Source: a virus. From it: a stretch of DNA of 28,727 nucleotides. Position 1 is the first letter of the stretch. The number at the start of each line of letters is the position of its first letter. Made by a program: the position numbers and the translations under genes. The stretch spans positions 1 through 28,727 of the IMG/VR virus record IMGVR_UViG_3300048121_001740. The stretch is one strand, 5' to 3'. Shown one piece after another: positions 1-25,024 of this stretch. The notes below the pieces were generated by a model. That model was given only the letters and a program-made list of their open reading frames with translations. It was not told the DNA's origin and ran no database searches.

Positions 1-1557
1 TAAAGTCACCAGCGAAGTCGCGTGTGTACTGTCCGGAGAATCCACGTGAGTAGTTACCTGTAAACGTTGTGTTGTAAGTACCAGTGTACTCACCAACGAA
101 TCCACGGTTGTAGTTACCTACGTAGTTACCAGCAAATCCACGAGAGTATGTTCCGGAATAAGCACCAGTGTATTCACCAGCAAATCCACGAGTATAATCT
201 CCTACGTAGTTACCAGCAAATCCACGTGCATAGTTACCGACGTAGTTTCCACCGAAGTCACGACTGAAGTTACCAACGTAGTTACCTGCGAACGTTCCTA
301 CGTAATCACCAACATACTCACCAGCGAACTGACGTGTGTACTGACCAGAGAAGGTGCGAGAGTAGTTACCTACAAAGTCACCAGCAAAGTTAGTTACACG
401 ATCACGGGTGTATGATGATCCACGGTTGCGGACGTATGCAGATACACGAGTACGAGCGTATGCGGAGTAACGAGTGCGCGTTGAAGTACGAGCATAGTCA
501 CCAGTGTAGTTACCAGCGAAGTCGCCTGCATATCCACGTGCGTAGTTACCAACGAAGTTTCCGGTAAACGTTGTTGCGTAGTTTCCTACGAAGTTACCAG
601 CGAAGTTAGTTACACGATCACGTGTGTATGAAGAACCACGGTTACGAGTAGATGTGCGGGTTGAATCGCGTGTGAAGTCACCGACGTAGTTAGTTACACG
701 TGTGCGAGCGTATGCACTGTAACGAGTACGAGCGTATGCGGATGCACGGTTACGTGTGTAGTAACCAGTATAGTTTGTTTCACGTGTGCGAGCGTAAGAG
801 TTCGCAAAGTTCTGTGTGCGATTACGTGTGTACGCAGAGTTACGAGTACGGGTGTAGTTAGTTACACGAGTACGCGCGTAGTTACCTACGAAGTCACCAG
901 CAAAGTTACCAGCGTATGCACGTGCATAGTTACCTACGAAGTTACCTACGAAATCACCCACGAATGTGCGAGCGTAGTTACCGACATAGTTACCAGCAAA
1001 TCCACGAGCGTAGTTACCTACGAAGTTACCAACATAATCACCCGCAAAGTTACGCGCATAGTTACCGACGAAGTCGCCAGTGAACGTTGTCGCATAGTTA
1101 CCTACGTAGTTACCTGCGTAAGTCAGTGTGCGTGAGTAGTAACCAGTATTGGTTGATGTGCGGGTAGATGTGCGTGAGTATGCACCAGCGAAGTTACCTA
1201 CAAAGTCACCTGTGTAGTATAGTGTCGCAGCGCGGTCACGTGTGTAAGTACCTGTCGCAACACGAGTTCTTGCGTAAGCACTATAACGTGTGCGTGTCGA
1301 AGTACGTGAGTAGTTACCAGTGTAGTTACCAGTGCGAGTACGTGCGTAGTTACCAGTGTAGTTTCCGGTACGAGTACGAGTATACGTGCCACCGAAGTTA
1401 CCTACGAAATCTCCAACATAAGTTGTTGAGTTCGCAAAATCACCTGTGTAGTAGAAAGTGCTACTACGGGTACGAGTCGAAGTACGTGTTGACGTTCTTG
1501 TAGAAGTACGAGTGTAAGTAGCAGTTCCTGTAAAGTTACCAGTAAAGTTACCAGTAT
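1..1557 (-). repeat. 12-base / 4-residue repeat array, continuing off the left edge
   Basis: The same repeat as the N-terminal segment, with the same two alternating classes (FVGNYARG-like and YARTRYSA-like), unbroken to base 1. The total array in the window is about 3.4 kb or roughly 290 four-residue units. Confidence 0.85.
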
Positions 1558-4492
1558 AAGAGGCACCACCCGATTGGTAAGTAACACCATAATGTGATAC
1601 GAATCCATTCGTGTTTCGCCAAGCAGCACGATAATATGTTACACCGCCAGCAGTCAGAGATGTTCCGCTTCCTGTCATGCCTCCAACTAAAGTTCCATTA
1701 ATATAAACGGTAACAAAATTGGTTCCACCTTCACTATCCGAACGCCAACCTGTAGTTAACGACCAGTTATTTCCGGAATATGCGTTGGTTACCTGACCGC
1801 CAGCACCAGTAGAAACACGTGTTGATGTACGTGTTGATGATGTAGATCGTGTAAAGTTACCAGCAAAGTTGCCTGCATAGTTACCTGCAAAGTTACCAAC
1901 AAAACCAGCACCGTTTGTGCTTACACGAGTAGAGTTACCAGCAACAACTCTATTACGAGTGTAGTTCGTTGCGCGAGTACGTGTGTAGTTACCTGCGTAT
2001 GAGAATGCACGGTTACGAGCATAGTCACCTACGTATGAAAATGCACGGTTACGTGTGTAGTTACCCACGAAGTTGCCTGCATATCCACGAGCATAGTTAC
2101 CAACGTAGTATAGGTTACGTGTGTAGTTACCTGTATAGGTCACGCCTACCGCTGAAGCACGAGTATAGTTTGTTACACGAGTACGACCATAGTTACCTAC
2201 GAAGTCACCTGCGTAGTATAGAGTACGTGCATAAGAGAACGTAGATGGTCTGCTACGAGTAGATGTACGCGCGAAGTCACCAACGTAGTTAGTGATACGA
2301 GTACGTGCGTAAGCTGAACCACGAGTTCTTGTATAGTTTGTTGCACGAGTTCTTGCGTATGCACTGTAACGAGTACGAGTAGATGTACGAGCGTAAGCAG
2401 AACCACGGTTGCGAGTGTAGTTCGTTGCGCGAGTACGAGCATATGCAGAGTAACGTGTGCGAGTCGATGTACGAGTTGAAGTACGTGCGTAGTTACCTAC
2501 GAAATCTCCAACGAAGTCACCGACGAAACCACGAGCGTAGTTTCCGGTGAAGTCACCAAGGAAGTTACGACTGTAGTTTCCGACAAAGTTTCCAAGGAAG
2601 TTACGACCGTAGTTACCTACGAATCCGCGAGAGTAGTTACCTACATATGCGCGAGCGTAGTTTCCAACGAAGTTTCCAACGAAGTCACGAGCGTAGTTTC
2701 CAATAAAGTTACCACCGTAGTTTCCTACGAAGGTGCGAGCATAGTTGCCCACAAAGTTACCCGCAAAGTTAGTGACGCGATCACGAGTAAAGTCACCAAC
2801 ATAGTTAGTGATGCGTGTTCTTGCGTAAGCACTGTAACGTGTGCGAGTTGATGTACGTGTTGATACGCGAGAGTAGTTACCTACGTAATCTCCAGCAAAT
2901 CCACGAGAGTAGTTACCCACGAAGTTACGCGAATAGTTACCTTGGAAGTTGCGAGAGTAGTTACCAATGAAGTTACCTGCGAAACCTGTTACACGGTTAC
3001 GCGTATATGTTGATACACGAGCACGAGAGAATACGCCAGTATAGTAACCAGTGTAAGTCCCTGCGAAGTTCTCTTCACGGGTGCGGGTAAAGTCAGTTGC
3101 GTAAGTAGATACACGTGTGCGCGTATATGTTCCAGCATAAGATGAAACACGGTTACGCGAGTATGTTCCAGAATAAGCAGAAACACGTAGACGGGAGTAA
3201 GTGCCCGAATATGTTCCAGAATATGTTGAAACACGGTTGCGTGTATAGTCTGCAACGTATGAAGAAACGCGGTTACGAGAATAAGTACCGGCGTAAGATG
3301 ATACACGACCACGAGTGTATGTTGAAACACGGTTACGTGAGAATGTACCAGTGAATGGTGTTACACGGTTACGTGTATAAACTGAAACACGTGCGCGTGA
3401 GTAAGTTCCCGCAAAGTATCCAGTAAACGCTGTTAAACGAGTACGTGCAAACGATGATACGCGAGTTCTTGCATATGTACCTGAGTACGATGATGGGCGA
3501 GTACGCGAGTAGTTCCCAACAAAGTCACGCGAGTAGTTACCTACGAAGTCGCGTGAATATGCACCAGTGTAGTCTCCTACAAAGGTACGACTAAATGTAT
3601 TTACACTATTACGCGTGTATGAAGATACGCGAGTACGAGTGTATGCAGAAACACGTGCACGGTTGTATGAAGATACGCGAGTTCTTGCGTATGCAACATC
3701 AACTGGAGTTCGACGTGTGTTCTGTGCAGTACCTACAGGCAACCATGAGCCTGGGACTGTCGGTGCGCCTTGTGCTGTGGAACGCAACTGGTATGAACCA
3801 ATCGATCCTGACGTAGCACGCATTGACTTAATACGTTGACCCAGTGTGTACTGAATCTGCGCATCCGTCATTTCACGTAGACCGTTGAAACCAGAACCGT
3901 CGTAGCTTGTCGCTACTGGACGAACTGGAGCAACTGCCGTCATAGAAGTACGCATCCAAATGTGATAGTTTGTTACTACGGTACCTGCCCCACCGTTACC
4001 ATGAGTGTCAGAGAATACAGAGTCAATAAACTTTGTATAGTCTGCACTTGGTTGAGTAGCGGACAGTTTGAAAGTACCGATATAGTCGTTCTGTACTAAG
4101 TTAGACAGAACACGACCTGCTAGGTTGTCCATATCCCCGTCTACCATTTCGTAGAAGCCTGGGTTTGGATCAACGTCGTAATAACCTACTGGGCGGACAA
4201 AGTCTGCACCGGATTCGTCTGCTGGGCCACTCACTTGCTTCAGAGTGGTGGTCACTGAGGCACCCGTTATTTGTGAAGCAGGGTGGGTGCCAGATATTTC
4301 ATTGTAGTAAGAATCTACAAACGAACCGATTGATTGGCCATCAGTTAAACTGATATTACCAACGTCATTAGAAGCGGCCGCAACTAATGCTTGTCCCACT
4401 GCAAAGGATAGATAAAGCTCATCCGATGGAGTGAATTCTTGTAGGTCACCATTAGCATTTTGAAGTTTTAGTGGTATACTAGATGCTGACAC
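1..4492 (-). CDS. Giant fibre protein built from tetrapeptide repeats (partial, C-terminus outside window)
   Basis: 1497 residues are visible, from a GTG at 4492 to the left edge, with no stop. An in-frame TAA lies 18 bases upstream of the GTG and AAGAGAG gives a moderate ribosome site; no earlier ATG is available. Residues 1 to about 265 are a non-repetitive head (SASSIPLKLQNANGDLQEFT at the start), a type seen in marine T4-like structural proteins. From about 265 onward the chain is a four-residue repeat: position 1 Y/F or R/S, position 2 V/A/T/S, position 3 G/R/S, position 4 N/D/T/S (for example FVGN YVGN, YARTRVSS). A single non-repeat domain of about 84 residues interrupts it (about 895-978). 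Probably a very long rigid or elastic tail fibre. I know no characterised structure for this repeat, so the function is inference. Confidence 0.8.
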   Translation of the reverse strand, partial: MSASSIPLKLQNANGDLQEFTPSDELYLSFAVGQALVAAASNDVGNISLTDGQSIGSFVDSYYNEISGTHPASQITGASVTTTLKQVSGPADESGADFVRPVGYYDVDPNPGFYEMVDGDMDNLAGRVLSNLVQNDYIGTFKLSATQPSADYTKFIDSVFSDTHGNGGAGTVVTNYHIWMRTSMTAVAPVRPVATSYDGSGFNGLREMTDAQIQYTLGQRIKSMRATSGSIGSYQLRSTAQGAPTVPGSWLPVGTAQNTRRTPVDVAYARTRVSSYNRARVSAYTRTRVSSYTRNSVNTFSRTFVGDYTGAYSRDFVGNYSRDFVGNYSRTRPSSYSGTYARTRVSSFARTRLTAFTGYFAGTYSRARVSVYTRNRVTPFTGTFSRNRVSTYTRGRVSSYAGTYSRNRVSSYVADYTRNRVSTYSGTYSGTYSRLRVSAYSGTYSRNRVSSYAGTYTRTRVSTYATDFTRTREENFAGTYTGYYTGVFSRARVSTYTRNRVTGFAGNFIGNYSRNFQGNYSRNFVGNYSRGFAGDYVGNYSRVSTRTSTRTRYSAYARTRITNYVGDFTRDRVTNFAGNFVGNYARTFVGNYGGNFIGNYARDFVGNFVGNYARAYVGNYSRGFVGNYGRNFLGNFVGNYSRNFLGDFTGNYARGFVGDFVGDFVGNYARTSTRTSTRTRYSAYARTRATNYTRNRGSAYARTSTRTRYSAYARTRATNYTRTRGSAYARTRITNYVGDFARTSTRSRPSTFSYARTLYYAGDFVGNYGRTRVTNYTRASAVGVTYTGNYTRNLYYVGNYARGYAGNFVGNYTRNRAFSYVGDYARNRAFSYAGNYTRTRATNYTRNRVVAGNSTRVSTNGAGFVGNFAGNYAGNFAGNFTRSTSSTRTSTRVSTGAGGQVTNAYSGNNWSLTTGWRSDSEGGTNFVTVYINGTLVGGMTGSGTSLTAGGVTYYRAAWRNTNGFVSHYGVTYQSGGASYTGNFTGNFTGTATYTRTSTRTSTRTSTRTRSSTFYYTGDFANSTTYVGDFVGNFGGTYTRTRTGNYTGNYARTRTGNYTGNYSRTSTRTRYSAYARTRVATGTYTRDRAATLYYTGDFVGNFAGAYSRTSTRTSTNTGYYSRTLTYAGNYVGNYATTFTGDFVGNYARNFAGDYVGNFVGNYARGFAGNYVGNYARTFVGDFVGNFVGNYARAYAGNFAGDFVGNYARTRVTNYTRTRNSAYTRNRTQNFANSYARTRETNYTGYYTRNRASAYARTRYSAYARTRVTNYVGDFTRDSTRTSTRNRGSSYTRDRVTNFAGNFVGNYATTFTGNFVGNYARGYAGDFAGNYTGDYARTSTRTRYSAYARTRVSAYVRNRGSSYTRDRVTNFAGDFVGNYSRTFSGQYTRQFAGEYVGDYVGTFAGNYVGNFSRDFGGNYVGNYARGFAGNYVGDYTRGFAGEYTGAYSGTYSRGFAGNYVGNYNRGFVGEYTGTYNTTFTGNYSRGFSGQYTRDFAGDF
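1558..1810 (-). other. Non-repeat domain inserted in the repeat fibre
   Basis: About 84 residues without the four-residue periodicity: contains NNWSLTTGWRSDSEGG, FVTVYINGTLVGGMTGSG and YYRAAWRNTNGFVSHYG. The alternating hydrophobic pattern suggests a small beta-sandwich. It is flanked on both sides by perfect repeat phase. Confidence 0.75.
1811..3700 (-). repeat. 12-base / 4-residue repeat array, N-terminal segment
   Basis: About 1.9 kb in which codons for an aromatic or Arg residue recur every 12 bases. Runs of Y/F-x-G-N (neutral) alternate with runs such as YARTRVST and STRTSTRTR (strongly basic). Codons vary between units, so the protein pattern is under selection. Confidence 0.85.
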
Positions 4493-4543: not shown

Positions 4544-4551
4544 TATTTATA
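4544..4551 (-). promoter_or_regulatory. T4-type late promoter for the giant tetrapeptide-repeat fibre
   Basis: Perfect TATAAATA on the minus strand, directly downstream of the terminator T tract and 51 nt before the GTG at 4492. Confidence 0.8.
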
Positions 4552-4590
4552 TAAAAAAAAAGTGCGGGAACCGAGGCATCCGCACTTTTA
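4552..4590 (-). terminator. Rho-independent terminator between the chaperone-like gene and the giant fibre
   Basis: The minus strand has AAAAGTGCGG, a 12-base loop and CCGCACTTTT with more T following. The A and T tracts on both sides make it potentially bidirectional. The following late promoter begins right after the T tract. Confidence 0.85.
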
Positions 4591-4611
4591 TAAAAATATT
4601 TCTGTCAATTA

Positions 4612-5094
4612 TTACTGTGGTGTAGTAGGCCAGTTTAAGTCTAATATACTAGACACCCCTTCCAAGTCTGAAGTGATATCACGTAGTTCTTGTCGATAAC
4701 CTGCCCATGCATTCTTCATATCAAGTGACAATGGGGCGTCTGGAATCTGAGTCCAATCACAAAGAGTCAACAATCTGTTTCTTTCTATTCGGATGTCCTG
4801 TTCCAGAAGTTCTGAGTCCCATGACCAATCACCAGTCTCCGGATTCCATTCCGCATGTTGGTTTGGCGGAAGACCGATATGGACGAACTTATATTCTACC
4901 ATGTCATAGGTGTATTCATTTCTAAGCTGAGACGGACCTTCACATCCATCCGGAATATTATCTTTTGTTACGTAGACAACAAGACTAATACCATCATCAA
5001 CTACTGTACCATTTGATGGAGTATTGTATTGAGGGGCACTGCATCTATTGATCTGCCCTGTTCTAATTGTCACGTATGCGACGTAGTCTAACAT
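4612..5094 (-). CDS. Tail fibre assembly chaperone-like protein (Phage_tail_APC type)
   Basis: 160 residues. The C-terminal part contains NRLLTLCDWTQIPDAPL (about residues 106-122), AWAGYRQELRDIT (129-141) and LNWPTTP (153-159), the conserved pattern of the phage tail assembly chaperone family: 'R..LL..CDWTQ.......AW..YRQ.LRD......WP..P'. Residues 81-93 (AEWNPETGDWSWD) are typical of the segment before that domain. Members of this family are usually found beside tail-fibre genes and help fold or trimerise the fibre. Here the gene has its own late promoter, ends at a terminator, and lies directly before the giant repeat fibre, its most obvious client. AGGA lies about 11 nt before the ATG. Confidence 0.85.
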   Translation of the reverse strand: MLDYVAYVTIRTGQINRCSAPQYNTPSNGTVVDDGISLVVYVTKDNIPDGCEGPSQLRNEYTYDMVEYKFVHIGLPPNQHAEWNPETGDWSWDSELLEQDIRIERNRLLTLCDWTQIPDAPLSLDMKNAWAGYRQELRDITSDLEGVSSILDLNWPTTPQ

Positions 5095-5134: not shown

Positions 5135-7081
5135 TCAATTGTTACCGAAATCACCGCCGCCGCCTGGGGTAGGTGGATTGTAACTACCACCACTTTGTCT
5201 AGTAATAGTGATATTACCACCAACCTTCGGTGTCCAATTTCCACCAGTTGCTTTTACTTGTGGAGTAAATGTTTTATTAGAACCTGCGGAAGGTAGATTG
5301 TTATTAATTGTTACTGTTACTAAACTGTAAAATGCTGTAGTAGTTGATGATGAAACCGCACCGGATGAGTCCACCATTCGTATCTGTTCACCACTCTGCA
5401 TTCCAGAATAATTCACACCATAACTTACCTCTGTTGATTCTATTGTTACGGACGAACTTCCTGATAGGGTTGGATTGCTCAATGGATCATTACTGCTTGA
5501 TGAATCTCCCGCCAATCGTCGAATAGTGAAAGGGGTTGACAACCAAGAATTTCCAGTGTATGCTTCAAGAGTATAATTTGCTGTTGTTGCGCTCGTAGTT
5601 CCAGTTCCGCTGGGCAGTCCCGCAGCAACCGTGATTGTGGTATTACCTGAATTGTTAAAATTAAATCCACTTCTAACAATAGTTCCAGAAGAATTTCTTA
5701 TTCTTCCCGCAACAGTAGCATCACCTACCGAACTAAAAGACGCAATAACATTAGCAGTAGTTGCGTTATTAGCAATATCAACACGGGTGCCTGAAGTGCC
5801 CACCACCGTTACAGACAAGTCATCATCATATAAACTAAAAGTACTTGATTGGAATAAATCCCCGTCTCCAAGTGTAGATCCCAGTCTCAGTTCTAGTGTA
5901 AAGGTTTCACCTTGCCATCCAATCTCAGAAGTACTATCATTATTTGCAGTGATTGTCATAGAGGTAGATGTTCCACTGAATGTTTTTCCAGTTCCGGATA
6001 GTTCTCCACCACCAACTGAACCTGAGTTTCGAACAACCTTTAAGTTGTAATCACCACTTATATTAACTCCAACATTGTATGTAATGCTAGGATCTGTACC
6101 TTCAGTTATCTTATTATCTTGACCTGTCGCAAGTTCTATAGTTCCTACAAGCTGTGTAACGCCAGATCCAGATTCATCCGTTCCATCGTCTCCGCTGTCG
6201 TCTGTACCGCTACCGTCAGATGCACCCGTTCCGGACGGGACCCCTGTATACATTTTGGCAGAAAATAATGCTACGTTATTAGGGAACCAAAAAATACCAG
6301 CACCCCCAACTTCGAATTCAAGAAACCCCTCATAAACGAAAGCACTAGTTGTACCAACTTGTATTCCTCTAATACGAAGACCACCCGAAGTACCGTCATA
6401 ACCACCATTAGCATAAGCTGAAGCGCCAACGGCAGTATGTTCTATATTCACATAACTATTAGATTCACCATAGGTAAATTGAGTTCTTAAACTATCATAT
6501 GACCAGCTACCAGATGCGGGAGCAACTCCATTTATACTAAAGGTCTGGTCATTAATAATTGCGCGAGAATCGAATGCAATGTCCTGAACACCATTTACTT
6601 CTTCGGTTAAAATCTGAATACCGTGAGTTTCGTTACTAGATAAACCATCACTGACAATCTGACCAACATCACGAACTAGGAACCAATCAAAGGCTACATC
6701 CCATTTTTGATAGGCATACCATCTTACATAGCCTCTATTTTGACCACCTATACTTCCTATTCTTCCGCCCTTGAAATTTATGGTTTTCTCATCTTCAGAT
6801 AGAGTAATATAATAATATGTTGGTCCAGTCCAATAGAGCTGTAACGTCTGGCCACCCTCCGGATCAGTATAATATCTTTGATAGGTTTCCCAACCACCAG
6901 GCGGTTCTTGTGGGTTTTTAACAAACAAAAGGTCGTTGGACTGTAATGCGGAATCTAAAGTAATTTGAGTATCATTAGTTCCGTAGTCCACTACGCGCAA
7001 GTTTCTTAAATTCTTATCAGTATCTGTTACAAGAAAAGTTCCACCAGCGTCAGTACCCTCTACCTTTAATCCATATGCCAT
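5135..7081 (-). CDS. Fibre/adhesin protein with Ig-like domains and Gly-rich C-terminus
   Basis: 648 residues. Residues 1 to about 280 form an aromatic beta-rich domain (YQRYYTDPEGGQTLQLYWTG). Residues about 283-308 are an acidic Gly/Ser/Asp linker. Residues about 312-628 look like three Ig-like sandwiches, each rich in Ser/Thr (for example STSMTITANNDS, GNTTITVAAGLPSGTG, SVTIESTEVSYGVNYSG). The last 20 residues are Gly/Pro/Asn-rich, ending PGGGGDFGNN. No catalytic motif was seen. Such architecture fits a distal fibre or adhesin that binds host surface glycans, inferred from composition only. It closes the gp8 transcription unit and has GAGG about 9 nt before its ATG. Confidence 0.8.
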   Translation of the reverse strand: MAYGLKVEGTDAGGTFLVTDTDKNLRNLRVVDYGTNDTQITLDSALQSNDLLFVKNPQEPPGGWETYQRYYTDPEGGQTLQLYWTGPTYYYITLSEDEKTINFKGGRIGSIGGQNRGYVRWYAYQKWDVAFDWFLVRDVGQIVSDGLSSNETHGIQILTEEVNGVQDIAFDSRAIINDQTFSINGVAPASGSWSYDSLRTQFTYGESNSYVNIEHTAVGASAYANGGYDGTSGGLRIRGIQVGTTSAFVYEGFLEFEVGGAGIFWFPNNVALFSAKMYTGVPSGTGASDGSGTDDSGDDGTDESGSGVTQLVGTIELATGQDNKITEGTDPSITYNVGVNISGDYNLKVVRNSGSVGGGELSGTGKTFSGTSTSMTITANNDSTSEIGWQGETFTLELRLGSTLGDGDLFQSSTFSLYDDDLSVTVVGTSGTRVDIANNATTANVIASFSSVGDATVAGRIRNSSGTIVRSGFNFNNSGNTTITVAAGLPSGTGTTSATTANYTLEAYTGNSWLSTPFTIRRLAGDSSSSNDPLSNPTLSGSSSVTIESTEVSYGVNYSGMQSGEQIRMVDSSGAVSSSTTTAFYSLVTVTINNNLPSAGSNKTFTPQVKATGGNWTPKVGGNITITRQSGGSYNPPTPGGGGDFGNN

Positions 7082-16490: not shown

Positions 16491-17954
16491 CTAGACCGTG
16501 ATGACTACTTTAATGTCTTCTTGTTGTTCCGCGTCACGACGAATGCGTGGGTGGTTCTCGATGTATAGTACCTCACCTGTGTATCGGTCGATGCCATATG
16601 TTACGGTGACGAAATCTATAACTCCAGACTTAGAGCTGTTGCTCACTTGAGTAACGGCGTGGTTAGGACCAAAGGGAGTAAACCCTGTAGTCATATTTTG
16701 ATGATAATAAACTGTCTTGTCTTTAACTTCATTGACATATGCGACTGCGCCCGTTGACAAAAGACTATTATTTTCTCCGGACGGTGATGACGCCTCAACT
16801 AACTCTCCATGATCAAACGGAGCATTGTTGTTTAAGGTGAATGACGATAGACACTTATCACCTGCGCCGGTATAAGGGGTACCATCCTGTTTCTTAGGAC
16901 CCCTGAGTATACCAATCTGTCGGAATGAGTTTTCTAAGATAAACCTGTTGTTCTCATCTCCGTTTGGTTTGATAGTCATTAGGACCGAACTTGTTTTGAA
17001 ATCAGATGATGCGTCAGCACCTAGTCCGGTAGAGGTCGTAATAACCGGACGTGCCTTTGCATCGGCCTCGCCCTCACCATTACCACCTTCGATAGTTATT
17101 AACGCACGACTATATCCCGATCCGTATGATGTGATTGTTTTTCTAGTTGGAATATCCCCAACAGTTTCACGATATGCTAAATCTATTCTTACGACCTGTC
17201 CGTTTGTATCAACAACTGCGGTTGCAGTCGCGTCGGTGCCATCGCCTTCAATCTTTACAACTGGGGGGTTGTTCTGGTCATAACCCTCACCACCATCGGT
17301 AACTATGATACTAATGATCTGACCACCGATTGCCTTGTCGGCAACATGCCATTGCAGATCTTCAATAGAATCACCATCACTCAGTTCATCTTCTAATGGT
17401 TGTACTGGGATGTGGTTAGATGATAAGAAGGTGTATATATTTTCAGGAGTCAGAGAGAACATGTACTTCCAAGTGTACCCGTCAGATAGAATAAATGGTT
17501 TCCACTGCATGGGCTCTGGTGGTTCCAGATTGACATCTTGTTCTGCATCGGTATAGTAGTTTGGTTCTACTGTCGACGGTTGATGGGTACCAGTATCATC
17601 AATACCATGTGACAAACAAAGGTATACTTCCTTTGCACTGTTCATGACATAAAATGGGAACTCGCTACCTGTCTGCGAGACGTTATCGTCCCATCCCTGA
17701 TACTTGTTTCCGTTCGTCCAGTTATATCGGCGAGTGACCATCACCGCACCTTCAACTTTCTTTACGGACTGTAAATTGTTTCTGAACTCTCGTTCTTCTG
17801 CTGAAGAATCTATAGGTGCCGGAACTGTATCATCTGAACCAAAGATATCGGACTTGCCGATACCGATGTAGTAGTCAGACTCAGGACCAAGGACACTCGC
17901 TAGAAGATCCTTCGCAAGTGAGGTTCGCAATGGTTGTCTAACAATGGCTGGCAT
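16491..17954 (-). CDS. 8: Baseplate wedge protein gp8
   Basis: 487 residues from ATG 17954, with AGGAAAG about 8 nt upstream and a late promoter just before; T4 gp8 has 334. The T4 gp8 landmarks appear in order: YYIGIGKSDIFG (residues 28-39, like the T4 'ITFGRSEPW' area), DGYTWKYMFSL (158-168, T4 DGYVWEYLFEI), FRQIGI (344-349, T4 FRQISI) and the C-terminus GEVLYIENHPRI...EDIKVVITV (T4 GEMIYMENRPPI...EEINILFTF). gp8 dimers bridge gp6/gp7/gp10 in the wedge. The extra length is mainly an insertion at about 220-305 holding two glycine-rich beta repeats (GGEGYDQNNPPVVKIEG and YGSGYSRALITIEGG). It ends 8 bases before the next gene. Confidence 0.92.
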   Translation of the reverse strand: MPAIVRQPLRTSLAKDLLASVLGPESDYYIGIGKSDIFGSDDTVPAPIDSSAEEREFRNNLQSVKKVEGAVMVTRRYNWTNGNKYQGWDDNVSQTGSEFPFYVMNSAKEVYLCLSHGIDDTGTHQPSTVEPNYYTDAEQDVNLEPPEPMQWKPFILSDGYTWKYMFSLTPENIYTFLSSNHIPVQPLEDELSDGDSIEDLQWHVADKAIGGQIISIIVTDGGEGYDQNNPPVVKIEGDGTDATATAVVDTNGQVVRIDLAYRETVGDIPTRKTITSYGSGYSRALITIEGGNGEGEADAKARPVITTSTGLGADASSDFKTSSVLMTIKPNGDENNRFILENSFRQIGILRGPKKQDGTPYTGAGDKCLSSFTLNNNAPFDHGELVEASSPSGENNSLLSTGAVAYVNEVKDKTVYYHQNMTTGFTPFGPNHAVTQVSNSSKSGVIDFVTVTYGIDRYTGEVLYIENHPRIRRDAEQQEDIKVVITV

Positions 17955-17985
17955 TTCATCTTTCCTGAATAGAAATAATATTTCA

Positions 17986-17993
17986 TATTTATA
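17986..17993 (-). promoter_or_regulatory. T4-type late promoter for gp8
   Basis: Perfect TATAAATA on the minus strand, ending 32 nt before the ATG at 17954. It decides the gp8 start: the longer frame from 18005 would begin upstream of the promoter. It opens the unit gp8 through the 648-residue fibre gene. Confidence 0.8.
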
Positions 17994-18001
17994 ACAATTT
18001 A

Positions 18002-19000
18002 TCAAGAACCTTTGAATAAAAGTTCTTTAATCCTTTTGAAGGTGCTTTCGTAGTCATAACACTGATACTGTTGACAGTACCATGCAATGAAACTACGTGA
18101 CCTTTCTAAATCAAACCAAGACAGATCTCGAACATATAACTTCAACTGTGATAAGTGTCTAAGGTCTTTTGTGATCCAATGGTATTCTGGATAACCGTAT
18201 GATATCATTGGGACATCATGCATGGCACATTCGATTCCCGCCGTACTGTTCTCTAAGATTGCAACTCTGGTCTTGGGTAAGATATCGTATAAACTTTGGA
18301 AGTCATCAAAAACTGTAACTCCATTTTCTCTCCACTCATCTATCTTAGTTTGATACTTTTCCCAGTCATCACATTCTTTCTTGAGAGTTGGATGAAGTTT
18401 AACCACAACAGGCTGTGTTCCCATAAGCTCTTCGACAATAGAACACATCTTGGTCCAATGGTTTCCAAAAGACATTTCGGTCACCGTTTGGTCTGCGGGC
18501 ATTTGTCCTATAACCAAAACATGATCATTTGGAACATCTAATTCTTCTTGTAAGAAACCAAACTCATCTTGTCTGTCCGACCACTTGGATTCTCTATCAT
18601 TGATGTAACTTACTACGTCAGTATTAAAGAACGACGTGCTGTCATAGTTTTCAAAGTTGGGTTTAGTGTAGGTTATCGACGAGGCCGCAGCGTATCCTAT
18701 GGGGTCAATAGTAAAGTGTTTGGATGTAGGTCCCGTGGGTTTTAATATAAGGACGTTGGGTCCCCGTATAAGTCCTCTCGTGTTTAGTTCTTCTAAAAAC
18801 GTGTGGTTGTAAATATAAAGATCATCGGGGTTGTCTACAATTCCCTGTTCCGTCATGTGTTGTAAACTGGGAGAGTCTATATAAGGACTTCTATTTACTG
18901 TGTATCCAAGATTAGAAAGAGCGAGGGTTACATAACAATACATCTCCGCCCAGTTTCCATATATGACGGGGTACTTATACGCGCATAGGTTTGCTATCAT
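18002..19000 (-). CDS. Glycosyltransferase-like enzyme (capsule polysaccharide synthesis / GT-B type)
   Basis: 332 residues from the ATG at 19000. The open frame extends to a TTG at 19045, but that would place the terminator inside the coding region, so ATG 19000 is preferred; its ribosome site is weak (GGA about 7 nt upstream). Motifs typical of GT-B enzymes such as capsule Kdo/glycerophosphate transferases: VVVKLHP (about residues 198-204), a conserved basic-His-Pro element for the activated donor, and ENSTAGIECAMHDVPMISYG (about 250-269), the 'S..GIE....P.I..G' donor-site loop. It is soluble, with no membrane segment or signal peptide seen. A sugar enzyme inside a structural operon, directly behind a threonine-rich collagen fibre, suggests it modifies a virion protein; modification of host surface glycans is the alternative. 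The precise family is uncertain. Confidence 0.7.
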   Translation of the reverse strand: MIANLCAYKYPVIYGNWAEMYCYVTLALSNLGYTVNRSPYIDSPSLQHMTEQGIVDNPDDLYIYNHTFLEELNTRGLIRGPNVLILKPTGPTSKHFTIDPIGYAAASSITYTKPNFENYDSTSFFNTDVVSYINDRESKWSDRQDEFGFLQEELDVPNDHVLVIGQMPADQTVTEMSFGNHWTKMCSIVEELMGTQPVVVKLHPTLKKECDDWEKYQTKIDEWRENGVTVFDDFQSLYDILPKTRVAILENSTAGIECAMHDVPMISYGYPEYHWITKDLRHLSQLKLYVRDLSWFDLERSRSFIAWYCQQYQCYDYESTFKRIKELLFKGS

Positions 19001-19010
19001 TTGGTATCCA

Positions 19011-19037
19011 TAAAAAATGGGGGGAATTACACCCCCC
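19011..19037 (-). terminator. Rho-independent terminator after the collagen-like gene
   Basis: On the minus strand: GGGGGG, loop TGTAATT, CCCCCC, then A and six T. The stem begins 9 bases after the collagen stop codon and the T tract ends about 11 bases before the predicted start of the next gene. It should separate or strongly attenuate expression of the glycosyltransferase-like gene from the fibre gene. Confidence 0.85.
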
Positions 19038-19045
19038 GTTATCAA

Positions 19046-22000
19046 TTATGTCGGTGCATTGAATGTACTACTTAGGTTTCCAATAACTACTCTTTTATCA
19101 CCACCTTCGAAGATTGCCATACCGTTTTCATTTAGAACGGTACCGTTACCAGCTGTCGTGGAGAATATCAAAGCGCTCGCACTTAGGATACCCGAACCAT
19201 TGCTGGTTCTTTCTGCGAAGTTCACATTAGCACCAGGCGCACCAGTCGCGGTTGCTTGGAATACTCGACCGTCAGCAACATACCACACCACGTCTCCCGA
19301 AAGAACTTCATTTCTACTTCCGAAGTTTCTCACTGTTGCGGATAGAGTGGCGTTAGATGGATTGTTTCCGCCTAAAGTGGTTTGTGTTTGGAAGACAACC
19401 GCATTACCTACATTACCAACTGGACCTTGAGCTCCACGTGTACCTGTTAAACCCTGTGGTCCTCTCGAACCGGCAGGACCTCTTGAACCTTGTGCTCCTC
19501 TTGATCCCTGTAGTCCCTTAGTACCCCGTATACCCTTTGTACCTTGATCACCCTTCGGTCCCTGTGAACCTTGTGGTCCTCTTGATCCCTGTAGTCCCTT
19601 AGTGCCTCGTGGTCCTTTCGATCCGGTTGCTCCTCTTGATCCCTGTAGTCCCTTAGTTCCCTGTAGACCCTTTGTACCTCGATCACCCTTAGTACCCTGA
19701 TCACCTTTAGTACCCTGTAGACCTTTTGTACCTTGATCACCCTTCGGTCCCTGTGAACCTTGTGGTCCTCTTGATCCCTGTAGTCCCTTAGTGCCTCGTG
19801 GTCCCTTAGTGCCCTGTAGACCCTTAGTACCCTGTAGACCCTTTGTACCTCGATCACCCTTAGTACCCTGATCACCTTTAGTACCCTGTAGACCCTTTGT
19901 ACCCTGATCACCTTTAGTACCCTGTAGACCCTTTGTACCTTGATCACCCTTCGGTCCCTGTGAACCTCGTGGACCTTGAGAACCTTGTAGACCCTTAGTT
20001 CCTCGTGGTCCTTTCGATCCGGTCGGACCTTTTGGTCCTTGAGAACCAATTGTACCGCGAAGACCTACTGGACCTTTTGTTCCTGTTGGACCTTTTGGAC
20101 CCTGTGAACCAATAGTGCCGCGCAGACCTACTGGACCTCTGGTTCCTGTTGGACCTTTTGGTCCTTGAGAACCAATTGTACCGCGAAGACCTACTGGACC
20201 TTTTGTTCCTGTCGGACCTTTTGGTCCTTGTGAACCAATAGTACCACGTGGCCCCACTGGACCTCTGGTTCCTGTTGGTCCTTTAGTTCCTTGATCACCT
20301 TTAGTACCACGTGGACCTACTGGACCCTGTGTTCCTGTTGGTCCTTTAGTTCCTTGATCACCTTTAGTACCGCGAAGACCTACTGGACCTCTTGTTCCTG
20401 TCGGACCTTTTGGACCTTGTGAACCAATTGTACCACGCGGACCCACCGGACCTCTGGTTCCGACTGGACCCTGTGGACCCTGTGAACCAATAGGACCTCT
20501 GGTTCCGACTGGACCTTTAGTGCCTTGATCGCCTTGAGTACCGATTGGACCAATAGGACCTCTAGTGCCCACTGGACCTTTAGTTCCTTGATCACCCTGA
20601 GTACCTTGTGGGCCAATAGGACCTCTAGTGCCCACTGGACCTTTAGTTCCTGTCGGACCCTGCGGTCCTTGTGAACCAATAGTACCTCTGATACCTTTAG
20701 GACCTGACGTTCCCTGAATACCTTTAGTTCCCTGTGGTCCAATAGTGCCTCTGATACCTTGAGGACCTGACGTTCCCTGAATACCTTGAGTTCCCTGTGG
20801 TCCAATAGTACCTCTAATACCTTGCGGTCCTGCGGTGCCCTGTGGACCTTGAGTCCCTTGTAGACCGATAGGACCTCTCGAACCAACTGGACCCTGCGAA
20901 CCCCGCAACCCCTGTGGACCTTGAGAACCTTGTATACCCCTAGTACCAACTGGACCTTTAGTTCCTTGATCACCCTGAGTACCTTGTGGACCAATAAGAC
21001 CTCTAGTACCGATCGGACCCTTTGGTCCCGCACTACCCTGTGGACCTGCGATACCCTGTGGACCACGTGTTCCTATAGGACCCTGTGTACCTTGAGGACC
21101 TGCTGTGCCCTGCGGACCAATAGTACCTCTAATACCTTGAGGTCCTGTCGTGCCTTGAATACCTTGTGTTCCTTGAGGCCCTTGCGTTCCGCGTAGACCT
21201 ACTGGACCTCTTGTTCCTGTTGGACCCACTGGACCTTGTGAACCAATAGTACCTCTGATACCTTGAGGACCTGACGTTCCCTGTGGACCTTGAATACCCT
21301 GAGTACCTTGTGGTCCTGCCGTGCCCTGCGGGCCTGGTGATCCTTGTGGACCTCTAGTCCCAGGCGGCCCTGGCTCTGTTCCTGCTGGACCTGCTGGGCC
21401 AGGATCCCCTTGAGGACCTCTGGTACCTGCCGGTCCTGGCTCTGTTCCTGCTGGACCCTTTGGTCCCGCACTACCTTGTGGACCTATGGTTCCTTGTAAA
21501 CCGACAGTGCCTTGCGGTCCTTTTGGTCCCGCACTACCTTGTGGACCTATGGTTCCTGTTGGACCTGTTGGACCCGCTGGACCCTGTGGACCTGAATCAC
21601 CTTTAGGTCCTTCTGTACCAACTGGGCCTTGTGGGCCGACAGTACCTGAAGGTCCTTTTGTTCCTTGTGGTCCTTCTGTTCCTGCTGGTCCTTTTGTGCC
21701 GGCTGGACCTTTAGTTCCTGTTGGACCCTGCGGTCCCTCTGTTCCAGCTGGACCCGATGGACCAACTGGACCTGTTGTTCCTACTGGACCCTGTGGCCCT
21801 TCTGTTCCTGCAATTCCCTGCGGACCAACCGGACCCCTTGGACCCATAGTTCCCATCGGACCTTCTGTACCCGTTGGTCCCTGTGGTCCTACTGGACCTG
21901 CTGAACCTTGTGGACCCTTTGGTCCTTCTGTACCCGTTGGTCCCTGTGGTCCTGTTTGACCTGTTGGTCCTTGAGACCCCTGTGGTCCTTCTGTACCCGT

Positions 22001-23155
22001 CGGGCCCTGTGGTCCTACTGGACCTGCTGAACCTTGTGGACCCTGTGGTCCTTCTGTACCCGTTGGTCCGATAGGACCCAGTGGACCTGTTGGACCTGCT
22101 GAACCTTGTGGTCCTTCTGTACCCGTTGGACCCTGTGGTCCTTGTGTACCAACCGGACCCTGTGAACCTTGTGGTCCTTCTGTACCCGTTGGTCCGATAG
22201 GACCCAGTGGACCTGTTGGACCTGCTGAACCTTGTGGTCCTTCTGTTCCTGTTGGACCTATTGGCCCTTGTAAACCAATTGTACCCTGTGGTCCTTGTGG
22301 ACCCTCTGTACCTGTTGGTCCGATAGGACCCACTGGACCTGTTGGACCCTGAGAACCTTGTGGTCCTTCTGTGCCTGTCGGACCTATCGGTCCTACTGGA
22401 CCTGTTGGACCCTGAGAACCTTGTGGTCCTTCTGTACCTGTTGGTCCGATAGGACCTACTGGACCCGTCGGTCCTTGAGAACCCTGCGGTCCTTCTGTAC
22501 CCGTTGGACCTATTGGTCCTACTGGACCTGTCGGTCCTTGAGAACCTTGCGGGCCCTCTGTACCTGTTGGACCTATTGGTCCTACTGGACCTGTTGGACC
22601 ACGACTACCTTTAGGACCCTCTGTACCTGTTGGTCCGATAGGACCCACCGGACCTGTTGGACCACGACTACCTTTAGGACCTTCTGTACCTGTTGGACCT
22701 ATTGGTCCTACTGGACCTGTTGGACCACGACTACCTTTAGGACCTTCTGTGCCTCTTGGACCCATAGGACCTGTCCAACCCGTTGGTCCTTTCGTTCCGT
22801 CTTGCCCCTTAGTTCCTGCTGGACCTTGTGGTCCGATTGGACCGCCACCAGACAATAGATTTTGTACATCGGTGTTTAAAGTAGAAATAAGACTAGTATT
22901 AATACCTTGTTGCGCTAGAATATTCCCAATCAAGTCGACGCTAGAAACAATTTCATCAAAGTCTGTATCTTGAATAGAACTTTCCACCGACAAATTAACT
23001 AGGTCAGTAATTTCTTGTAATGTAATCCCGCTGTCTGTTGTTATGAGACTATAAATTTCAGCGAAGTTCTCATTAATTTTCTCACCGGCGGTGCGAAGTG
23101 TATCACCCGATCCGTCGTTCGCTCCCTGTCCAGTGTTAATGATTTTTCTTGACAT
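19046..23155 (-). CDS. Collagen-like fibre protein, 1369 residues
   Basis: Residues 1-104 are a non-repetitive head containing [14 protein letters not shown], followed by helical sequence. Residues about 105-1247 are almost uninterrupted Gly-X-Y (about 380 triplets). Residues about 1248-1369 are a compact C-terminal domain ([19 protein letters not shown]) that may nucleate trimer folding. The N-terminal collagen half is rich in GPT, GPV and GTE triplets, the C-terminal part in GTK, GDQ and GLQ. There are two one-residue breaks (GTEPG). By analogy with other phage collagen-like proteins it should form a long trimeric fibre on the tail or capsid; the exact site is inference. The start is well supported: AAGGGA lies about 10 nt before the ATG. 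A strong terminator follows the stop codon. Confidence 0.9.
19415..22843 (-). repeat. Gly-X-Y coding region with 9-base periodicity
   Basis: About 3.4 kb of DNA coding continuous Gly-X-Y triplets, seen on the plus strand as endless ggacc/ggtcc at 9-base steps. Glycine, proline and threonine codons vary, so the protein repeat is conserved more strictly than the DNA, which points to selection on the protein. Confidence 0.9.
22313..22753 (-). repeat. Tandem 63-base repeat inside the collagen-like gene
   Basis: Seven consecutive units of 21 residues: three of the form [14 protein letters not shown] + VGPIGPT, then four with QGSQ in place of KGSR. More degenerate units continue leftwards. This higher-order repeat implies growth of the fibre by unequal duplication of 63 bases. 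Confidence 0.85.
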
Positions 23156-23191: not shown

Positions 23192-25024
23192 TTAAGATTT
23201 CTCGATGGCATACCAATAAACCAAATCGTCTCGTATTCCATATACTTGAGAGTCTCTTAAATCTCTACGAGTATAAGTCACACCACCAATAGTATAAGAT
23301 GACCTTCTGAAGATCCCTGGCGTATTTTCAGTGAATACTAACTGATCATTCCAATAGACTGCTGTATAAACCATACCTTCATCACTTGATGGGTCATAGT
23401 AGTCTGCATGATACCAGTAGAATCTTGGGGCATCTTTAGAATATCGAATGTCCGCTGGTTCTGGTTCCGGTTCTGGTTCTGGCTCCGGTTCTGGTTCCGG
23501 TTCTGGTTCTGGCTCCGGTTCTGGTTCCGGTTCTGGTTCTGGCTCCGGTTCTGGTTCAGGGCCTGGCTCCGGTTCTGGCTCTGGTTGTGGTTCTGGTTCA
23601 GGCTCAGGTTGTGGTTCTGGTTCTGGTTCAGGCTCAGGTTCTGGTTCCGGAGTTGGACCCACGCGGAGTACACCAAATATGTTTCCGTTATAGTCAGAAG
23701 ACTCCTGATCACCACGTTCATAGATGCGACCATCTGGACCAATGAGTCTGGTAGGCCAACCATCTTCGTGACCTGTTATATCGTAGACGACTTCGTCATT
23801 CCACTTGACTGTAACTCTAAGTGTCGGTATCCACTGCTCCCACGAATACTCTGGGTATGCTGATCTGTAGTGGACTATATTGTCTGGTAGATCCTCTTCT
23901 GGTTCTGGTTCTGGTTCTGGTTGTGGTTCAGGGCCCGGCTCTGGTTCTGGCTCAGGTTCTGGTTCTGGCTCAGGTTCTGGTTCCGGATCTGGAGTTGGCA
24001 TCGGTTGTGGTGGTTCAATCATATCTGGAGTCCAAACCTCTGGACCAACATCTACTAAGGTACCATCTGCATCTCTATACCTGACCGTAACCTCTGTCTC
24101 CGCCGCACCACCATCAAGTAGTTCAAAGTCTTCAGACATGAGGATCTCATCGTTACTCATTCTAAACGATCGAGTCGATGCCCAGTCCGCAACGGTTGTG
24201 TAAATTTCTGCTAGACGTTCGATGGATATATCGTCGTAACGGTCTAACGTCTCTAGTGCGCTCAAAATAAATGTGATGTCTTCTGGGTCCGTCTCGCGCA
24301 GTGTCATCAACGCAAACGTAGAACGTAGGTTGATACCACCCACTTCTGATCCGACTGGTACTGGATAGTTTGGTGTCTCTAATGGATCTGTAGTAAGACC
24401 CGCACGGAGTCCTATAATAGCATGAGACAATAATGCAACTTCTGCTGCAAGATAGAAACCAGCGGGATGAGCAAACTTCTTATAGATTGTTTCATAGTCT
24501 ATGAGACTCATTCCGGTCTTCAATAAGATAGAGAAGATCTGATACTTCTTATCGTCGACAATAAACTTAATACTCTCTGGACCAATAAAGGACCCACCAT
24601 CCTGATCATTCAGAATAAAGATGTTACGTTTCGGATATTCTATCTCTACGGTATCACCAAAGAACCCACGAAAGAATTGTTCAACTGATTGTTCTGTACC
24701 TTTCGCACGATAGAAGTTAGCAAGAAGTCTTGCCATCAACTGAGGATTGTTGTAGAATGTATCTGACTGAACACCCTCTGCAAGTTCGGCGAGTAATGAA
24801 TCTAGATGGGACCCATCTATGCTACTAATAGTGCGTACATTATATAAAGACTGTATCTGTTTTGAAAACGAACCACTCTCGTTCCCTTCCATGTACTCGT
24901 AGTACCTTTCAAGGAACTGTATAAACTCTGGGTATTGCTCAACGAAAAACTCAGGTACCGCATTCCTTACTGTGTTGGAATGCAGTCCGATATGAGTTCG
25001 ACGGTCGTCCGTTTGTATTGCCAT
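23192..25024 (-). CDS. Baseplate-type structural protein in gp7 position, with two Pro-Glu rods and two related small domains
   Basis: 610 residues. Residues 1 to about 210 form a compact domain with [20 protein letters not shown] and [15 protein letters not shown], a pattern I associate with structural proteins of marine T4-like phages. Residues about 345-376 are a (Pro-Glu)n rod. About 377-455 is a small aromatic domain containing [11 protein letters not shown]. About 457-522 is a second, longer Pro-Glu rod. About 523-610 is a second domain with [11 protein letters not shown] that looks related to the first. The gene follows gp6 where T4 has gp7, and gp8 comes three genes later, but I see no clear sequence match to gp7 and leave the symbol blank. 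The rods probably hold the small domains away from the baseplate. Start ATG overlaps the gp6 stop (TAATG). Confidence 0.8.
23453..23655 (-). repeat. Second, longer Pro-Glu rod
   Basis: About 66 residues of Pro-Glu (with PQ and PG variants) encoded by a six-base repeat alternating GAA/GAG and CCA/CCG/CCT-type codons. A longer near-perfect repeat (a 36-base block recurs around 23470-23560) suggests expansion by duplication. It separates the two related small domains. A length-variable locus is likely. Confidence 0.85.
23896..23989 (-). repeat. First Pro-Glu rod (short GAACCA/GAGCCA-type tandem repeat)
   Basis: Six-base tandem repeat coding alternating Pro and Glu with a few Gly or Gln substitutions, about residues 345-376 of the 610-residue protein. 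Read on the plus strand the same DNA gives meaningless Ser-Gly runs. Confidence 0.85.

Follow-up and report, generated by a model that had tools for sequence, protein, structure and literature searches.

T4 gp37 is the described phage fibre whose plan comes closest to that of the protein reported here; it comprises a collar (residues 811-881 and 1010-1026), two stem arms (882-931 and 960-1009) and a receptor-binding tip (932-959) (PMC6957217), and its needle constitutes a six-stranded antiparallel beta structure (PMC7291167). Collagen-like phage fibres, by comparison, display Gly at each third residue and are Pro-rich. The central spike of T4 gp5 harbours an octapeptide repeat. This spike is described as a triple-stranded beta-helix with three chains round one axis (PMC4576200), and gp54 of mycobacteriophage Tweety displays a long run of tetrapeptide repeats whose copy number varies (PMC2884959).

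In this work, we analysed a window, i.e., the whole stretch of 28,727 nucleotides, whose minus strand harbours a gene for a protein with a four-residue (tetrad) repeat. According to our results, the product is probably a giant tail fibre that a T4-like marine phage expresses late, with antiparallel arms running out and back around a tip. This fibre may work like gp37 without recognisable sequence kinship to the gp37 family: both would share equal arms running out and back around an inserted tip (the gp37 plan being that of the published description), and both belong to T4-like phages with a fibre chaperone gene. Conversely, the gp37 arms have 50 residues, compared to about 100-1,000 in the present family (those of the window are about 12 times longer), and gp37 bears iron-binding histidines, whereas the window fibre follows a four-residue Tyr/Arg/Gly code with His essentially absent; no homology to gp37 residues 811-1026 was detected (hhalign probability 0.2%, E 0.36; best BLASTP E 0.10). 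Tweety gp54 is likewise a phage protein with a long tetrapeptide run, yet its motif is Ala-Ala-[Gly/Trp/Gln]-[Ser/Tyr], in 15-48 copies forming one block, with no aromatic/Arg phase. The T4 gp5 spike resembles the proposed window fibre in being a thin, fibrous beta structure of a phage that is built on a short repeat, and differs in its three wound chains from the antiparallel two-arm pairing proposed here; the window repeat displays no sequence match to any PDB chain. Collagen-like fibres, one of which is a neighbour in the window (19046-23155), are also long repetitive tail fibres, in contrast to the period of four and the near lack of Pro in the present repeat.

The fibre gene and the elements upstream of it are arranged as follows:

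2..4492, minus strand: in-window part of the whole tetrad-repeat fibre gene (1,497 aa, GTG start, open frame).
4544..4551, minus strand: T4-type late promoter TATAAATA, about 52 nt upstream of the fibre start codon.
4552..4592, minus strand: intrinsic-terminator-like hairpin with a T run (-17.2 kcal/mol, z -4.6), between the chaperone and fibre genes.
4612..5094, minus strand: tail-fibre assembly chaperone gene (PF16778, Phage_tail_APC, E 1.1e-14; phrog_4912, E 1e-12).

The late promoter is kept at about -47 to -69 upstream in most of the window-type relatives, and the PF16778/phrog_4912 chaperone gene lies directly upstream of the fibre in the window, in L009 and in C48C1. The window also encodes homologues of baseplate wedge subunits, and the fibre locus resembles the host-recognition cluster of related marine myophages (PMC7029224). 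The proposal that the repeat protein is a phage fibre, made in the initial annotation, is therefore well supported by the T4-like baseplate and tail-fibre cluster, the adjoining chaperone gene, the terminator and the late promoter. Exact TATAAATA late-promoter-like sites occur at 4544, 5123, 17986 and 27316, all on the coding (minus) strand, where 1.0 would be expected. The site at 17986-17993 falls within the listed ORF 16491-18005 (gp8-like), and for this reason that gene probably starts at a later ATG. The same cluster includes a collagen-like (Gly-X-Y) tail fibre of 1,369 residues (19046-23155, minus strand); its N-terminus is that of a T4-like fibre, and it strongly matches tail-fibre PHROGs. 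Amid the fibre genes, a 347-residue ORF (18002-19045, minus strand) displayed no meaningful PHROG match, and we have only the impression of an enzyme of polysaccharide or glycosyl-transfer type.

The minus-strand frame from 4492 to 2 contains zero stops across 1,497 codons and runs past the window edge, so that the initial observation holds on checking. In the L005 relative (93% identical), about 108 further repeat residues are followed by a conserved tail with YTLY; given this extension, the true window protein is longer than 1,497 aa and, by comparison with L005, its C-terminal 130 aa or so would lie outside the window edge. We found at least 72 related loci, 71 of which came from scanning viral contigs; almost all of the loci lie on T4-like phage contigs of marine type, and one homologue of 3,347 aa is encoded in a finished annotated phage genome, C48C1 (L002), a T4-like Kyanoviridae genome of 156 kb. 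Complete members range from about 650 to 3,350 residues and have in common an N-terminal base domain, the tetrad repeat and a C-terminal tail, in which YTLY is followed by a short R-containing end. Searches for known relatives of the family yielded no Pfam match (E<=0.1), no PDB match and no match in the fold library; those in PHROG were weak and of unknown function. PDB searches with the repeat and base domain gave chance-like best values for phmmer (E 0.22) and profile (E 0.47). A match to Enterococcus phage Riverwalk was discarded as chance, being antisense to annotated genes and of low complexity. The family is undescribed in the literature searched, which lies mostly outside subscription journals.

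Many family contigs carry two tetrad-repeat fibre genes side by side (L036, L038-L045, L048-L050, L053, L054, L056-L065, L067, L069 and L070), each gene having a separate base domain and tail, and with arm lengths that differ between both. The second gene is interrupted by an in-frame stop in L044 (2676-6203) and by a frame change in L043 (10474-13990), these being either natural variants or sequencing errors; the near copies in L040-L042 are intact. Residues 2098-2144 of the C48C1 fibre constitute a tandem duplication of a side-module end plus repeat, apparently a recent event or an assembly artefact. A further homologue (L074) lies at one end of a contig of 142 kb that bears the label of a Sphingobacteriales MAG (bacterial) and is probably binned phage DNA or a phage genome; as a clue to the host, this label is a weak hint at most.

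Within the window, the protein is divided into four parts:

3707..4492, minus strand: N-terminal base domain, aa 1-262, a part that the family conserves, made of three tandem alpha/beta units of about 90 aa.
1844..3691, minus strand: outgoing repeat arm, aa 268-883, with 616 residues in 154 tetrads, the length of the L005 return arm.
1538..1843, minus strand: tip module, aa 884-985, hypervariable, non-repeat and presumed receptor-binding.
2..1537, minus strand: return repeat arm, aa 986-1497, truncated at the window edge, its pairing given by a blind register scan.

The four-residue period spans aa 268-1497 (nt 3691-2). Tyr/Phe autocorrelation reaches 0.55, 0.60 and 0.56 at lags 4, 8 and 12 and is negative at the other lags tested, and that of Gly is positive at lags 4, 8 and 12 only, so that Gly does not occur at every third residue. 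Besides small phase slips, the repeat is interrupted once, by the non-repeat module of about 100 residues at aa ~884-985 (nt 1843-1538). In a count of 8,052 tetrads, drawn from 49 members of the family, Y (49%), F (28%), R (18%) and S (6%) make up position 1; position 2 is T, A, V or S; position 3 is mainly G (41%), R (38%) or S (12%); and position 4 is mainly N (34%), T (24%) or D (15%), with Pro at 0.1% and both His (0.0%) and Met at about zero. An Arg at position 1 almost always comes after an Arg at position 3, and a Gly-type tetrad followed by an Arg-first one was seen 9 times against 539 expected; the tetrad period and its Arg grammar are far beyond chance. These counts match the pattern [YF or R]-[small]-[G/R/S]-[N/D/T/S] given in the initial annotation, whose strict period of four is borne out by the autocorrelation, although the extent of about 1,150 residues was slightly low and the interruption had been overlooked, as had the hypervariability of the tip, the equality of the arms and the conservation of both ends. 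With period four and no significant match to a solved repeat fold in PDB, Pfam or the fold library, its distinction from pentapeptide and hexapeptide beta-helices and from collagen also stands.

Coupling within the repeat is strongest at i,i+2 (0.74 bits between positions 1 and 3; 0.58 bits between position 3 and the next position 1), compared to 0.38 at most between neighbouring residues, which suggests that residues two apart share one face, as in beta-strands, and points to beta structure. Most of the indels listed between relatives are multiples of four. Positions 1 and 3 display an excess at a spacing of 3 tetrads (12 residues); one higher-order period was considered and rejected, as the peaks at 3, 6 and 11 tetrads seem to record past duplications and not one coil.

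Arm lengths around the central module are equal or nearly so in L005 (616/616), L028 (460/460), L071 (580/580), L019 (748/748), L020 (678/679), L032 (416/416) and L017 (572/572); in some members the equality is inexact, e.g., L009 (586/612), because the module edges are ragged. Antiparallel pairing was assessed in 41 non-redundant proteins by comparing residue i with residue s-i, where s was set by both conserved ends. Cross-arm mutual information, conditioned on phase, peaked at register 0/2 with values of 0.18-0.29 at every depth from 0 to 400 aa (bins of 0-60, 60-150, 150-250 and 250-400 residues from the base), falling to about 0.05-0.14 once the register was off by 12 residues or more and to 0.03-0.10 in a control with arms swapped between proteins. 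Across the arms, Arg avoids Arg and faces Gly or Tyr/Phe: for position 1 opposite position 3, Arg-Arg was seen 10 times against 222 expected, Arg-Gly 554 against 252 and Tyr/Phe-Arg 1027 against 688, and for position 3 opposite position 3, Arg-Gly was seen 749 times against 427 and Arg-Arg 65 against 393.

The register could also be recovered for individual proteins. When the pair score was trained solely on proteins with dissimilar base domains and 56 registers were scanned, the predicted register ranked first in 38 of the 41 proteins; the misses were L002 and L039, which have return-arm insertions near the base, and the irregular second gene of L056. For the window protein, a blind scan of about 600 sums gave 1871 as the best (0.223; runner-up -0.123), the exact value predicted from the C-terminus of L005, with residue i of the return arm opposite residue 1873-i or 1875-i of the outgoing arm. 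At this sum, aa 883 is opposite aa ~990, so that pairing extends up to the borders of the tip module and ends there. Furthermore, a model-free scan of single proteins recovered the predicted register in 21/28 cases and favoured the antiparallel over the parallel arrangement in 23/28. Gapped pairing aligned L028 as a single ungapped block (275-742 with 839-1306), and in C48C1 the extra return-arm modules came out mostly as loops. An RNA or DNA hairpin as the source of the mirror coupling was discarded, since no nucleotide complementarity was found.

Insertions and deletions are mirrored as well. Of the 312 indels counted in the outgoing arm over 151 pairs of relatives, 174 had a return-arm counterpart that agreed in sign and length and lay no more than 20 residues from the mirror position, whereas random positions or swapped pairs gave a mean of 25 and a maximum of 49. 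For instance, 28 residues are missing from both L009 and L035 at 406 from the base, as are 28 at 411 in the opposite arm, and L020 and L071 differ by 20 aa indels at 297 and 296 from the base in opposite arms. By this matching rule, about 44% of the arm indels are left without a clear mirror counterpart, partly due to alignment ambiguity, and the counts are not independent events, because the 151 pairs share ancestry; the per-protein register scans do not rest on such pairs. Taken together, the covariation indicates that both arms are coupled residue by residue in antiparallel register; in a low-complexity repeat, covariation and paired insertions that link stretches a thousand residues distant from each other are unusual.

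This covariation fits pairing within one chain and between chains alike, and both the atomic fold and the oligomeric state are predictions. The same register could be formed between chains, as an antiparallel dimer or through swapped arms, for which covariation at constant i+j and mirror indels would be equally expected. We regard such inter-chain pairing as an unlikely account, though one with some weight. A full antiparallel dimer would place bases at both ends and the variable module mid-rod, which does not suit a fibre attached by one end and carrying its adhesin at the other; arm swapping within a parallel trimer is entirely possible and would alter the reading little.

Structure prediction bears on two further alternatives. 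AlphaFold2 was given two constructs of one arm each, one joining the base domain to the first part of the outgoing arm, and the other spanning the end of the return arm. The base domain was predicted with pLDDT mostly 75-95; its units 2 and 3 are clearly homologous by profile comparison (hhalign E 1.5e-8), and unit 1 more weakly so (1 vs 3, E 7.6e-4). Foldseek with the base-domain model, which carries a disordered tail, returned only noise and no match at E<=0.001. For the repeat, the mean pLDDT was 26 in one construct and about 22-43 in the other. Such very low confidence, as well as a composition rich in Tyr, Phe, Arg, Gly, Asn, Ser and Thr, would suit a disordered sticker-and-spacer polymer, with Tyr/Arg among Gly/Ser/Asn/Thr, acting as a flexible or sticky tether; this reading is strongly disfavoured and has very little chance of being correct, as the strict phase and grammar, Pro at 0.1%, the in-register covariation and the compensating indels are unexpected in such a polymer. 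Equally improbable is a beta-solenoid formed by a single chain, with faces of four residues and akin to a shortened pentapeptide or hexapeptide helix, in agreement with which are the short strict period and the 12-residue excess for positions 1 and 3. Its coils would couple i to i+coil inside an arm and not i to s-i over 1,000 residues, and indels of 4, 8, 12, 16, 20, 24, 28, 56, 60 and 72 residues suit no single larger coil. AlphaFold2 is generally good at solenoids, and none was found in the single-arm construct. Finally, that the arms share only a composition dependent on distance from the base, without contact, would yield some mirror symmetry and is the least credible explanation, since arms of different proteins in the same register share roughly 3-7 times less mutual information and equal-length mirror indels are left unexplained. 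Regarding the new fibrous fold suggested in the initial annotation, the covariation makes it concrete as antiparallel pairing of the arms, whereas AlphaFold2 on single arms (pLDDT about 25) does not back it.

In the out-and-back fibre that we propose, the base domain (aa 1-262) would anchor a rod; the outgoing arm of about 154 tetrapeptides would lead to the tip of about 100 residues, followed by a return arm of equal length and by the short conserved C-terminal tail, back at the base. The arms would be zipped together antiparallel, in register and over their full length, with Arg facing Gly or Tyr/Phe across them, and three chains would most likely form one slender rod, by analogy with other tail fibres, whose fast-evolving module at the far end may bind the host surface. 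If the strands run axially, like those of the gp37 stem in T4, a rod of about 200 nm would result (616 residues x 0.33 nm), compared to 145 nm for the T4 long tail fibre (PMC6957217). On balance, we lean towards a previously undescribed fold, defined by a single-chain antiparallel zipper of hundreds to about a thousand residues per arm, a four-residue Arg/Gly/aromatic code, compensating mirror insertions and exchangeable adhesin modules, the latter being located at the turn and, in some members, also as side loops of the return arm. If correct, this would be a novel route from one simple repeat to a protein fibre both very long and thin; its readable pairing code would be of use in protein design, and the finding would help to explain how abundant marine phages reach and recognise their hosts.

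The tip is the most variable part of the fibre. Near relatives are mostly 90-100% identical to the window along the backbone and only 10-66% at aa ~850-1000. The window tip is shared with the distant L015 (75% over the module and its flanks) and is absent from L005, the nearest complete relative; for this reason, tips have probably been exchanged between lineages by recombination. Judging from its variability, the module may bind the host receptor, and a swapped hypervariable tip would be a possible host-range marker for uncultured marine phages. An iterated HMM built from the window tip recovered no tip family beyond close copies, and no Pfam domain was recognised in the relatives scanned. 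By eye, most tips resemble one small beta-rich module with a GG-x-x-Y-x-R-G motif.

Modules that look tip-like by eye (W-N-D/E ... Y-x-R) are also present in a 610-residue protein encoded at 23192-25024 (minus strand), which bears two long Glu-Pro-rich spacers; the HMM from the fibre tip did not match them. Moreover, genes adjoining the fibre in three relatives (L071:3025-7389, L008:4944-9056 and L018:5607-10040), apparently homologues of window 5135-7081, contain short tetrad runs of their own, such as YTPTYTPTFTPT in L071, and the L018 gene also carries tip-like modules.
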